Virus record (IMG/VR): IMGVR_UViG_3300032315_000747 | Location: 17,900-81,899 of that record | Length of the DNA stretch: 64,000 bases | Reading direction: 5' to 3' (one strand) | From: a virus | Part shown: positions 56,490 to 62,322 of the stretch, piece by piece | Layout of the letters: each line of letters opens with the position of its first letter | Numbering within the stretch: position 1 is the first letter of the stretch | Notes under the pieces: model-generated | Seen by the model: only the letters and a program-made list of their open reading frames with translations | What the model was told of the DNA's origin: nothing | The model's database searches: none | Position numbers and translations under genes: made by a program

Positions 56490-56564
56490 TGGTAGTCGAT
56501 GTAGGTACCGCCCCTACCGTCTCCCGCTTATCAGGCGGGTGCTTTACTTCTAAGCTAATCGACC
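56490..56564 (-). tRNA. tRNA-Ile (anticodon GAU), degenerate elbow
   Basis: Acceptor GGTCGAT/ATCGACT, anticodon loop CTGATAA, discriminator A, CCA encoded. The D-loop lacks the GG pair, and the T-loop reads GGCGGTA, so the usual elbow contacts are missing. Confidence 0.75.
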
Positions 56565-57898: not shown

Positions 57899-57920
57899 GC
57901 TAAACAACCGATTGTTTAGC
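57899..57920. terminator. Hairpin at the end of the metalloprotease gene
   Basis: GCTAAACAA-CCGA-TTGTTTAGC, a 9-bp perfect stem that overlaps the stop codon at 57916. No T run, so termination is uncertain. Confidence 0.45.
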
Positions 57921-58908
57921 GTCTCCACCAAAGATAGCGCCTGACGAACTTGTCCATCCAAGCTTGCTGTGGCCCACTTAGTTCATCGTATACATATGCG
58001 GTAAAGAGTTCGGCGAAAAATTCTAAAGTATTGGTGCGGGCGTAATCAGTCGGGAACCAATCGTCTCCGTTCTTTGACCACGAAAGAGAAAAATATTTGA
58101 TCAGCGACGGGAAGAATGAACTCGGGACGCTCTGGTGTAGAATGTGGCCCAATTCATGAATGACCGTCTCGGCCATATCTGCCGCAGGCCTTCGGCTGTC
58201 TACCCATATCCGTCCAAAACCTAACATCGGAGCTATTCCAGTACTATCGGTGGGCAATTCGAAAAATTCTACTTTAGCAGAACGGATCAATGGGATCAGG
58301 CCATGATTGTCGAGTAGATCACACGCTTGACGGAAGGCGCGTTCACAGTCACGAAAATCGTATTCATCAATCGTCCCGTCAATGAGACCACGTACCCCTT
58401 TGTATACAATTTTCTGTGCTTTTTTAGGTCCGTAAAGTCCCAAATTGATTGGGATATTTTTGAGATCAAGCTTGAGCATTGGCTCTTTCTCATATTCGTC
58501 GTCATCATCCCAGCCTTCATAGATCGGGTCGATTGATTCTGTTTTATCTCTGCGTTGCAGTCTGGCCGCCCGCGCCGAAATGATGTAGGTCAGAATATTG
58601 CCGATCTCGTGTTTTCTCGCGATGTTTGATAGCTCTGCTTTTTGCTTCTCAAGTTTAGTGATCTGTTCGTGAGAAGAAGTACCTCTGATCTGATCCTCTA
58701 TTTGGGCCCACGCCGCCGCTAGTTCAGTCGCGATTTGGTGCTTTTTTTGATTTGTTTCAGGAGAACCATAACGCGGATAATCTGTCCGCTTATCACGCGC
58801 AAATTCACCAGATACTGGAAAAGTATCGGGTGCTCTTTGATCTGGGCCTTGGGTATGAATACCCTCACAGATCGAGATTAGTTTTCGCATGTCTGTACGA
58901 CTATCCAT
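57916..58908 (-). CDS. Zinc metalloprotease-like protein
   Basis: A 330-residue protein from ATG 58908 behind TTGAGGA; longer frames read through the tRNA-Ser gene. ETVIHELGHILHQ is a zinc HExxH, and TLEFFAELFTAYVYDELSG supplies a downstream glutamate as in gluzincins. The N-terminal 200 residues are charged and helical. It may be a virion or host-targeting protease. A CATAAATA box lies upstream. Confidence 0.72.
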   Translation of the reverse strand: MDSRTDMRKLISICEGIHTQGPDQRAPDTFPVSGEFARDKRTDYPRYGSPETNQKKHQIATELAAAWAQIEDQIRGTSSHEQITKLEKQKAELSNIARKHEIGNILTYIISARAARLQRRDKTESIDPIYEGWDDDDEYEKEPMLKLDLKNIPINLGLYGPKKAQKIVYKGVRGLIDGTIDEYDFRDCERAFRQACDLLDNHGLIPLIRSAKVEFFELPTDSTGIAPMLGFGRIWVDSRRPAADMAETVIHELGHILHQSVPSSFFPSLIKYFSLSWSKNGDDWFPTDYARTNTLEFFAELFTAYVYDELSGPQQAWMDKFVRRYLWWRR

Positions 58909-58934
58909 AAATAGTATCCTCAAGGTTGATACAC

Positions 58935-58942
58935 TATTTATG
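58935..58942 (-). promoter_or_regulatory. Late-type box CATAAATA
   Basis: Minus-strand CATAAATAGTG between the CCA end of tRNA-Ser(GCU) and the metalloprotease start at 58908. Confidence 0.5.
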
Positions 58943-58947
58943 CCATA

Positions 58948-59038
58948 TGGTGGAGGGTGAGGGATTCGAACCCTCGGTACCTTTGAAAGGTACAATGGTT
59001 TAGCAAACCAGCCCATTCGGCCACTCTGGCAACCCTCC
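58948..59038 (-). tRNA. tRNA-Ser (anticodon GCU)
   Basis: Class II tRNA with long variable arm (TGTACCTTTCAAAGGTACC). Acceptor GGAGGGT/ACCCTCC, anticodon loop TTGCTAA, discriminator A, CCA encoded. Its first base is also the last base of the stop codon of the gene at 59038. Confidence 0.9.
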
Positions 59039-59643: not shown

Positions 59644-59657
59644 GTATTAATATTTAT
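59634..59657. repeat. Left direct repeat flanking an HNH gene
   Basis: 24 nt spanning the 5' end of tRNA-Ser(UGA) and 14 bases beyond, matched 23/24 at 60259-60282. Confidence 0.8.
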
Positions 59658-60154
59658 GTAGCTACTTTAGCCGCAGACTTTTTCTGTCTGTATTCTCGGT
59701 CATACGCTCTACCGTTGCCTCTATTTTTACTTTTGTAAGTAGGTAGCTGTGCATCACAGTTACAACACACTAATCTAAAATTCTCAATTCTATTATCAGT
59801 GCTATCTCCGGAGATATGATCGCATACTAGCGGAATCGGCTGACCTTGCCACTCTTCGGTTCCGCACATACTGCACTTATTCCCAGTTTCTTCTATTAAG
59901 TACGCTCTTGCATGCCTCCTAGCTACTGTTTCACAATAATCGCTTAATTTACCATTTTCAACTATGTCTTTTCTACGAGCAGAAATTTTGGCCTCATCGT
60001 GCTTTCCTTTGTTCCAAGCAACTGTTCCCTTTTTAGCACCTGCATTTGGAGAATGCTTATGCTTTATTCGGTTAGGATTGTTCTTGCAACTCATTTCGTG
60101 AGCCGTTAGCGAACCCTTATTTGATATTTCTCGTTCACAATACTGACACTTCAT
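59654..60154 (-). CDS. HNH homing-type endonuclease with zinc finger
   Basis: A 166-residue protein. The N terminus is a zinc finger (CQYCEREISNKGSLTAHEMS), then a NUMOD-like HSPNAGAKKGTVAWNKGKH, then the HNH core CSMCGTEEWQG, VCDHISGDSTDNRIENFRLV and CCNCDAQL. Free-standing homing nuclease. It sits between tRNA-Ser(UGA) and a tRNA remnant, flanked by a 24-nt direct repeat. A CATAAATA box and AAGGAG precede it. Confidence 0.85.
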   Translation of the reverse strand: MKCQYCEREISNKGSLTAHEMSCKNNPNRIKHKHSPNAGAKKGTVAWNKGKHDEAKISARRKDIVENGKLSDYCETVARRHARAYLIEETGNKCSMCGTEEWQGQPIPLVCDHISGDSTDNRIENFRLVCCNCDAQLPTYKSKNRGNGRAYDREYRQKKSAAKVAT

Positions 60155-60282: not shown

Positions 60283-60960
60283 TTAATCACATTCGGCAAC
60301 TAAAGAAAGTCCTTCAATTAGTGGTCGCATAGACTTTCTGATATTTCTGATCTTCATCATTTCCGGAATGATTTTATTTCTAAGTACGTTTCTTTCATGA
60401 CAGTTCAACATGTTGGTCTCGTCTTCTACCCATTCAAGTTTGTTAGATAGTGCAGTGTAAATTAAATCTGCCTTTTCTACCTCTAAGAGAGGCTTATACT
60501 TGACATAATTCTTTTCTGTTTCTGATAGCTTCTGCATGACCAGATTCTTAGAACCTCGCATGGAAGCCATGAAGTATTGCTCTAAATTGTCATCATAATG
60601 ATGTGCAGTTAGTACTACATTTTTCCCAGAAAAGTTACTTAACGTGTCGTCAACGAATTTCCATCTTTGTTTCCTTGCCTCATGCTCTTGGTTGGAAATA
60701 TTAGCTAAACCGTTGCCATACCCTGAGTAGAATCTAAGATTGTATGTTTGTGCATACGAGATAACTACATTCATGTCGCTGAAGTCAGATGAACGGATCA
60801 TGTGCCTGAAATGAATCGCGATGGTGTCTGAACGGATTTTTCTTACTAGGTCCAGAAGAACCATACTATCAACACCGCCTGATACCATGACAAACACGTT
60901 ATCATATTTGTCTAGTTCAATGGAGATTTCTTTTTTGAGCTTTCTCCAAGATACGGGCAT
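60283..60960 (-). CDS. tilS: TilS, tRNA(Ile)-lysidine synthase (minimal form)
   Basis: A 225-residue protein matching the catalytic half of TilS. SGGVDSMVLLDLV (residues 27-39) is the PP-loop. LTAHHYDDNLEQYFMASMRG is the TilS HHxDDxxE helix, and DETNMLNCHERNVLRNKIIP is its RNxxR segment. TilS attaches lysine to C34 of tRNA-Ile(CAU) so that it reads AUA. The C-terminal domains of E. coli TilS (432 residues) are absent. A CAU-anticodon tRNA gene ends 19 nt upstream on the same strand. Confidence 0.88.
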   Translation of the reverse strand: MPVSWRKLKKEISIELDKYDNVFVMVSGGVDSMVLLDLVRKIRSDTIAIHFRHMIRSSDFSDMNVVISYAQTYNLRFYSGYGNGLANISNQEHEARKQRWKFVDDTLSNFSGKNVVLTAHHYDDNLEQYFMASMRGSKNLVMQKLSETEKNYVKYKPLLEVEKADLIYTALSNKLEWVEDETNMLNCHERNVLRNKIIPEMMKIRNIRKSMRPLIEGLSLVAECD

Positions 60961-61356: not shown

Positions 61357-61649
61357 TGGTATGAGCGGGGGGACTCGAACCCCCACGGAGTACTCCAACG
61401 GATTTTCTTACCACTATAGCTTTCGCTACCTTCGCAGTTTGTGGTCTGGACTATACCTTCACCGTTGCTTTTGCTTTAGGTGCTCGCCGTCTAGTCTCTA
61501 CACGTTCAAAGATATTTCTATCTAAGCTTCGCTCGGGATTGCCATCTTACAGGGTTCCCCGAATTTGACGAGTTCTACTCTACGGGTTTCCCCGAAGGCA
61601 CTCAAATTATGTCTAAGTCCGGTGCGTCTACCAATTCCGCCACGCTCAC
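61357..61649 (-). tRNA. tRNA-Leu (anticodon UAA), split by a group I intron
   Basis: Exons 61615-61649 and 61357-61406. Joined they give acceptor GTGAGCG/CGCTCAT, the Leu D-arm GCGGAATTGGTAGACGC, anticodon loop CTTAAAA, variable arm (TTGGAGTACTCC), T-loop TTCGAGT, discriminator A and CCA. The intron interrupts the anticodon after U34. Confidence 0.9.
61407..61614 (-). ncRNA. Group I intron in tRNA-Leu(UAA)
   Basis: A 208-nt element. The 5' exon ends in T, and ACTT pairs with intron GAGT to give P1 with a U-G at the splice site; the intron ends in G. Core elements are visible: TTCGGGGAA and GGCAATCCCGAGC (P4/Q), AGAGACTAGACGG (R), AAGGTATAGTCC (S), with P7 GACTA/TAGTC and P8 CACC/GGTG, and a GAAA-capped P9 hairpin. 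No open frame lies inside. It resembles the tRNA-Leu introns of cyanobacteria and plastids. Confidence 0.92.
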
Positions 61650-61869: not shown

Positions 61870-62301
61870 TTAAGAGAAGTTTACGACGCCTGAATCAATG
61901 ACAGGATGTTCATCATCGGTTCTGTCAACAATCGTATATGCAAACTTTGTGGTGCCTAATTCCTTGAGCATACCTGCTACATCACCAAGCATGAAGTTTT
62001 TGCACGAATATAAATCGAACTTGTAAAAGGCAGGAGTGCCGCCCCAGAAATGAATGCTAGAATGGCTAGTCGTGATGCCCACGATACCGGTAACACCTTC
62101 GTTACCTTCATCATTGCACCATTTACAGGTTGGAGCGATAAACACTTCCATGTCAACTGCTGCGACTAATCGCAAAAACCAATCTTCCAAAAAACTAACA
62201 TAGTCTTCTTTTGGAGCATTTTCTAGGTATCCTGTAACAAGGATGTGTTTGTGAACGTCAGCCAACTCATAAACCTTTCTTTCAATTTTACTGTCAGACA
62301 G
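61870..62301 (-). CDS. S-adenosylmethionine decarboxylase-like protein (SpeD family)
   Basis: A 143-residue protein. IVGITTSHSSIHFWGGTPAF matches the SpeD ESHxSIHxWPE segment, where a serine makes the pyruvoyl group, and YKFDLYSCKNF carries the catalytic cysteine. SpeD starts spermidine synthesis and is known in cyanophages. No ATG starts the frame: either CTG 62301, exactly 5 nt after GATAAATA, or TTG 62265. The first fits the other late genes. Confidence 0.75.
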   Translation of the reverse strand: MSDSKIERKVYELADVHKHILVTGYLENAPKEDYVSFLEDWFLRLVAAVDMEVFIAPTCKWCNDEGNEGVTGIVGITTSHSSIHFWGGTPAFYKFDLYSCKNFMLGDVAGMLKELGTTKFAYTIVDRTDDEHPVIDSGVVNFS

Positions 62302-62306
62302 TAGAG

Positions 62307-62314
62307 TATTTATC
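62307..62314 (-). promoter_or_regulatory. Late-type box GATAAATA, 5 nt before an in-frame CTG
   Basis: Minus strand GATAAATACTCTACTG. The AdoMet decarboxylase-like frame is open at the CTG. Confidence 0.6.
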
Positions 62315-62322
62315 AAAAAAGC

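Follow-up and report, generated by a model that had tools for sequence, protein, structure and literature searches.

The window, a 64-kb stretch comprising positions 17900-81899 of an 81,899-bp IMG/VR virus record, contains a phage tRNA-Leu(UAA) gene that is interrupted within its anticodon. The first-pass annotation had described a 208-nt group I intron that splits the anticodon after U34, the site used by the tRNA-Leu(UAA) introns of cyanobacteria and plastids, and that carries no internal homing gene. Reconstruction of the gene bore out this description exactly, including the length and coordinates of the intron:

61357-61649, minus strand: split tRNA-Leu(UAA) gene with encoded CCA, by exon reconstruction
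61615-61649, minus strand: 5' exon, ending in CCGGACUU, with U34 as its final base (C32 U33 U34, CUU), by exon reconstruction
61407-61614, minus strand: group I intron of 208 nt, starting with A and ending with G (omega-G, 61407), by RF00028, tRNA reconstruction and homologues
61357-61406, minus strand: 3' exon, opening with A35 A36 A37 A38 (AAAAUCC) and terminating in CCA, by exon reconstruction

The joined exons form a canonical tRNA-Leu(taa) of 85 nt with a long variable arm, and the insertion point lies between U34 and A35. The search with the Rfam group I covariance model that the first-pass annotation had called for gave a match at 61431-61624 that covered the full model (RF00028, Intron_gpI) and scored 58.8 bits, above the gathering cut-off of 50 (E=2.4e-12 in an Rfam search over the 64-kb window); the intron boundaries were taken from the tRNA reconstruction and the homologues. 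The longest open stretch within the intron is 53 codons, and no homing gene was found inside it. Default ARAGORN overlooked the split gene; with introns allowed, it returned exactly 61357-61649, but misplaced the splice site and called the gene Arg(tct). These data identify the insert as a tRNA-anticodon group I intron that interrupts a phage tRNA-Leu(UAA) behind U34.

The ribozyme fold was examined by drawing helices P1 to P9 onto the intron of the window and counting pairs over 63 homologues, 35 of them from phages (alignment A1). At the 52 drawn pairs, 95.5% of cells held standard pairs, as compared with 25-40% when the partners were slid by 1-3 columns. Two-sided changes were found in 30 of the 52 pairs, against a shuffled mean of 24.2 and with none of 500 shuffles reaching as high a count, and the covariation score was 0.393 versus 0.128. 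The following elements were assigned:

61600-61618, minus strand: P1, exon ACUU (61618-61615) with intron GAGU (61603-61600); U34.G at the splice site, U.G in 63/63
61483-61572, minus strand: P3, 61572-61567 with 61488-61483; covariation in 4/6 pairs, 99.7% paired
61533-61562, minus strand: P4, 61562-61557 with 61538-61533; pair 69/115 covaries between GC and UA
61502-61532, minus strand: P6 (61532-61530 with 61504-61502) and the P6a loop; P6 100% paired
61449-61496, minus strand: P7, the guanosine-binding helix, 61496-61492 with 61453-61449; 100% paired, last pair A-U, U-A or G-C
61460-61482, minus strand: P8, 61482-61479 with 61463-61460; covariation in 3/4 pairs
61410-61445, minus strand: P9.0-like pairing (61445-61441 with 61414-61410) around P9 (61428-61425 with 61420-61417); 99% and 100% paired, 6/9 pairs covary

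Among the 63 homologues, P3, P4, P6, P7, P8, P9.0 and P9 each covary; P5 is also present in the window intron, and the terminal G precedes the 3' exon in all alignment rows. P1, P4, P7, P8 and the final G, all of which had been noticed at first reading, are present. On the basis of this pairing and covariation, the invariant U.G and the terminal G, the window intron is a maintained ribozyme fold, beyond chance. Related introns in alphaproteobacterial tRNA-Arg genes (BbgpI) self-splice in vitro and are spliced in vivo (PMC7717549), and the window intron is likewise predicted to splice.

Homologues at the same site were found by BLAST in three large phages. Unannotated introns are present in Agrobacterium phage Atu_ph07 (490 kb) and in the 735-kb phage record LR756501/LR756503, and an intron with an internal HNH gene is present in the 595-kb phage LR756511. 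The introns of Atu_ph07, LR756501 and LR756511 share with the window intron the same tRNA, the same site and a homologous core; the Atu_ph07 intron differs in its length of 278 nt and its enlarged P8, and that of LR756511 in its length of 700 nt with the HNH gene. RF00028 missed the introns of Atu_ph07, of the 735-kb and 595-kb phages and of a pelagiphage (L002, L003, L004 and L008) even at E 0.01. Since these are clear homologues, Rfam scans undercount the family, and because RF00028 alone was too insensitive, the survey was made by core patterns and alignment.

The core-pattern scan of IMG/VR returned at least 120 stretches, mostly within tRNA genes. After exon reconstruction and deduplication, at least 67 phage and at least 112 bacterial or plasmid tRNA-Leu(UAA) introns with the identical splice site were obtained, so that dozens of metagenomic phages carry the same intron at the same site. 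Among the matches listed in the genome pattern scan, most were from Alphaproteobacteria, with others from Acidobacteriota, Gammaproteobacteria, Planctomycetota and Bacteroidota. The distribution of the intron in Alphaproteobacteria is sporadic: 11 of the 289 genomes sampled matched, one of these being the chosen centre. The window intron is 75-84% identical to same-site introns of phages and bacteria and has the P9.0 motif and the core in common with them. Judged from these sequences, the phage introns and those of several bacterial phyla are homologues. Two pattern scans detected no cyanobacterial-type introns in viral contigs, and no cyanobacterial-type reference intron was found among plasmids.

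The relationship between phage and bacterial introns was assessed with a maximum-likelihood tree of 179 phage and bacterial or plasmid introns among the matches listed, read without a fixed root or direction. The phage label changed 6 times on this tree, as compared with 54 times when labels were shuffled. Because phage introns are AT-richer (42% GC versus 59% in bacterial introns), the analysis was repeated with RY coding. Again 6 label changes were counted, and for 175 of the 179 introns the nearest neighbour other than near-copies carried the same label. Base composition is thus ruled out as the source of the split between phages and bacteria. Given this clean separation, phages are best seen as mostly passing the intron among themselves, in lineages of their own, rather than acquiring fresh host copies.

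This conclusion bears on the possibility that the whole split tRNA-Leu gene was taken from a host, perhaps an alphaproteobacterium, in which case the intron would be a host intron. A same-site intron is indeed found here and there in Alphaproteobacteria (10 of the 288 genomes sampled, the centre not counted), and the window intron branches near the split between phages and bacteria, with a support of 65 on a weak backbone. However, its best phage relative is 84% identical and its best bacterial relative 78% among the matches listed, the two labels separate under either coding, and free-standing HNH partners occur at phage loci only among the matches listed. We consider a passenger of host origin unlikely.

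The association of the intron with HNH endonucleases was examined among its relatives. Eight long introns (679-809 nt) from phages and bacteria have, inserted into the P6 loop in one orientation or the other, a gene of a single HNH family (phrog_10822); these ORFs lie between P6 and P7, the position of the P6a loop in the window intron. Intron-internal HNH genes were found at 6 phage and 4 bacterial loci among the matches listed. A free-standing HNH relative lies within ~140 bp of the split tRNA-Leu at 29 of the 91 phage loci and none of the 113 bacterial ones among the matches listed (Fisher P 4e-12, which is indicative only, as the loci are mutually related and some end near the gene). When the HNH sequence alone was used for scanning, the nearest relatives were found beside intronless tRNA-Leu(UAA) genes (L264, L265, L266, L268, L274, L275 and L298) and in or beside intron-bearing ones (L267, L269 and L271-L273), and more distant relatives adjoined other tRNA-Leu or other tRNA genes. 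The phrog_10822 HNH is a general phage family that also occurs beside other tRNAs, and the cultured phages S-CRM01, Cronus and Michonne have such an HNH gene touching tRNA-Leu.

Two orthologous phage segments, one bearing the intron (L027) and one without it (L264), are 87% identical along 3.5 kb on the downstream side and 89% along 455 bp on the upstream side. They diverge in a ~600-bp tract where the intron and three tRNAs lie, a pattern expected of co-conversion around a homing site. At a further locus (L033), the exons are 95% identical to the intronless tRNA-Leu of S-TIM5. Two HNH architectures were distinguished. In the downstream and intron-internal forms a GGNY module lies at the N-terminus, and in the upstream form (L011, L012, L028, L051, L059, L118 and others) it lies at the C-terminus. 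AlphaFold modelled the module of the first architecture as three helices with pLDDT mostly ~90, and the module is plausibly DNA-binding; a fold search with the HNH model gave weak matches to HNH nucleases, none at E<=0.001, and none of the solved structures was a good match. The mechanism of collaborative homing is established (PMC6083498; PMC10448857). Collectively, the HNH linkage and the intron-plus/minus pair point to homing that would be partly collaborative, with the putative HNH target placed by position.

These data also suggest, on what we judge to be slightly better than even grounds, that homing is concentrated at the tRNA-Leu(UAA) genes of phages, where a single intron lineage has combined repeatedly with a single endonuclease family that carries the GGNY module. 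The states in such a series would be an endonuclease beside an intronless gene, on either side of an intron-bearing gene, and inside the intron in either orientation. If so, the series would show directly how an endonuclease and an intron merge into one mobile element, in this case within a tRNA anticodon and not in a protein gene.

Our favoured reading, which we hold to be quite probable, is that the window intron belongs to a group I lineage that circulates mainly among phages through HNH-driven homing. The pre-tRNA would fold with P1, placing exon ACUU on the internal guide with U.G at the site; exogenous guanosine bound in P7 would cut after U34; the released exon would then attack after the terminal G, joining the exons; and the ligated exons would mature into the only tRNA-Leu called on the contig. 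Spread would proceed by double-strand-break homing, with an HNH endonuclease encoded either in the P6 loop or free-standing beside the tRNA gene (collaborative homing), and the window copy, which lacks an endonuclease, would be inherited or a passive hitch-hiker. We infer the splicing, the HNH target and the homing in this scheme. The contig has ~20 tRNA genes, and no tRNA-Leu was called on it other than the split gene. Across 19 long ORFs, 41% of the leucine codons are UUA or UUG. For the phage to benefit from the split tRNA-Leu, the intron must splice.

The intron might instead serve as an adaptive switch or shield, which slows the maturation of the tRNA or shields its anticodon loop or gene against anticodon nucleases of the host or competing homing endonucleases. 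Its insertion within the anticodon itself would suit such a role, and by its position it breaks the likely HNH target in the partner loci; tRNA-cleaving defences are encountered by phages (PMC13096335). Many relatives nevertheless lack the intron, and neutral persistence accounts for the pattern, so that we regard this role as distinctly improbable. Degeneration of the intron into a non-splicing remnant in a dead tRNA gene, which a few mismatched drawn pairs (P2, P5) in the window copy and the metagenomic nature of the contig might suggest, is very doubtful, given that all core helices and invariant core bases are intact and that joining the exons still gives a canonical, CCA-ending tRNA. Spread across lineages and an independent origin had both been offered at first reading, and the former stands, best seen as passage from phage to phage within phage lineages rather than a simple transfer from cyanobacteria or an alphaproteobacterial host, but an independent origin at the anticodon site, for which the scattered distribution and nothing more speaks, is rejected as next to impossible by homology (75-84% identity at the identical site, with the P9.0 motif and core in common).

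The neighbourhood of the window copy was inspected for an endonuclease partner. No homing endonuclease was found in or adjoining the intron, and the nearby ORFs were the following:

59654-60154, minus strand: HNH endonuclease ORF of 166 aa, 1.2 kb downstream, beside tRNA-Ser
60283-60960, minus strand: PP-loop (PF01171) ORF, a neighbour
61870-62316, minus strand: AdoMet decarboxylase-like (PF02675) ORF, a neighbour

The HNH ORF at 59654-60154 was considered as a collaborative-homing partner and found unsupported, as only the HNH domain is common, the flanking domains differ and the GGNY module is absent. The window copy is best read as an endonuclease-free member of the family. No orthologous intron-minus allele of the window gene was found. 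A syntenic relative of the window phage (L247) has a tRNA with a UAA anticodon and yet a short variable arm at 2622-2698; it was rejected as an empty site, since this short-armed tRNA is not the orthologous gene. The first-pass annotation had taken the phage to look alphaproteobacterial. Host assignment by protein similarity gave no near relative in INPHARED, and an alphaproteobacterial host is a guess.

Other features were seen in the window and in related phages. GOLLD RNA enclosing a tRNA is present in three phages related to the window (L250 7338-7799, L251 7136-7604 and L252 7171-7604) and is absent from the window at the matching place. A tRNA at 56493-56564 of the window is seen by Rfam and missed by default ARAGORN, and a 366-aa ORF at 57916-59016 weakly resembles zinc metalloproteases in Pfam, with a score under the cut-off.

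Group I introns, their insertion into tRNA-Leu(UAA) and collaborative homing are already known. The tRNA-Leu(UAA) introns of cyanobacteria and plastids, which belong to subgroup IC3, were reportedly described by Kuhsel and by Xu in 1990. Like the window intron, they lie after U34, precede an AAAAUCC 3' exon, end in G and need no ORF; by comparison with an Anabaena sequence, which is a lead only, they also share the core motifs GAGACU-N-GACGG and AGUCC. In contrast, the P9.0 strand reads AGUCCAGACCAC/GUGGU in window-type introns and AGUCCAAUUCUC in Anabaena. The alphaproteobacterial tRNA-Arg(CCU) introns (Agrobacterium, Bartonella BbgpI; PMC7717549) are likewise small group I introns in a tRNA anticodon, but interrupt another tRNA on the host chromosome, with no phage involved. 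The F-CphI/psbA system of cyanophage S-PM2 (PMC6083498) resembles the relatives described here in having a free-standing endonuclease beside an intron-bearing phage gene, with intron-minus relatives nearby; here, however, the target is a tRNA, the endonuclease is an HNH of the phrog_10822 type and not of the EndoVII type, and cleavage is putative. A partner of the F-CphI kind is absent beside the window copy. T4 SegB is also a homing endonuclease that moves phage tRNA regions, but is a GIY-YIG enzyme acting with no intron.

A 2014 review placed all phage introns then known in protein genes and explicitly noted the absence of phage tRNA introns (PMC3984707), and no earlier report of phage tRNA introns was found in the open-access library searched. 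The introns are widespread in phage tRNA genes and have probably escaped annotation because default tRNA finders skip them. The Atu_ph07 paper reported 33 tRNAs by tRNAscan-SE and did not mention the intron (PMC6102473); phage tRNA repertoires such as this one may be undercounted. Since phage intron lineages are separate from bacterial ones, the patchy distribution of tRNA introns among bacteria could plausibly reflect carriage by phages. Further, one HNH family occurs inside the intron, adjacent to it and at intron-free genes of a single tRNA, and these states offer a way to test how mobile introns originate.

Related introns were also observed in other settings. On the resistance plasmid NC_021811.1, a tRNA-Leu(UAA) beside aac(3)-II is split by a related intron (L006 3001-3249), which groups with alphaproteobacterial introns in the tree and recurs in ~1,266 further plasmid records, with no listed feature over it among the rows shown. 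In Pelagibacter phage HTVC120P, a capsid gene is split by a sequence homologue of the tRNA-Leu introns (L008 1001-1155), and four viral matches (L010, L018, L032 and L049) resemble this case; together, they suggest that the introns jump between tRNA and protein genes. Group I introns were also found in or beside phage tRNA genes on seven further contigs (L021, L031, L045, L080, L086, L101 and L124), for which ARAGORN suggests Lys, Thr, Met and others; these isotypes are putative, as the tRNA-Leu(UAA) caller did not reconstruct them. On the strength of these introns, phage tRNA introns probably extend beyond tRNA-Leu(UAA). A 280-kb viral contig (L119 3526-5058) carries three neighbouring tRNA genes with group I introns within 1.5 kb; two of the genes are Arg-UCU and Leu-UAA, and the isotype of the third is uncertain. 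Finally, a permuted tmRNA match was detected on a viral contig (L031 3387-3772).
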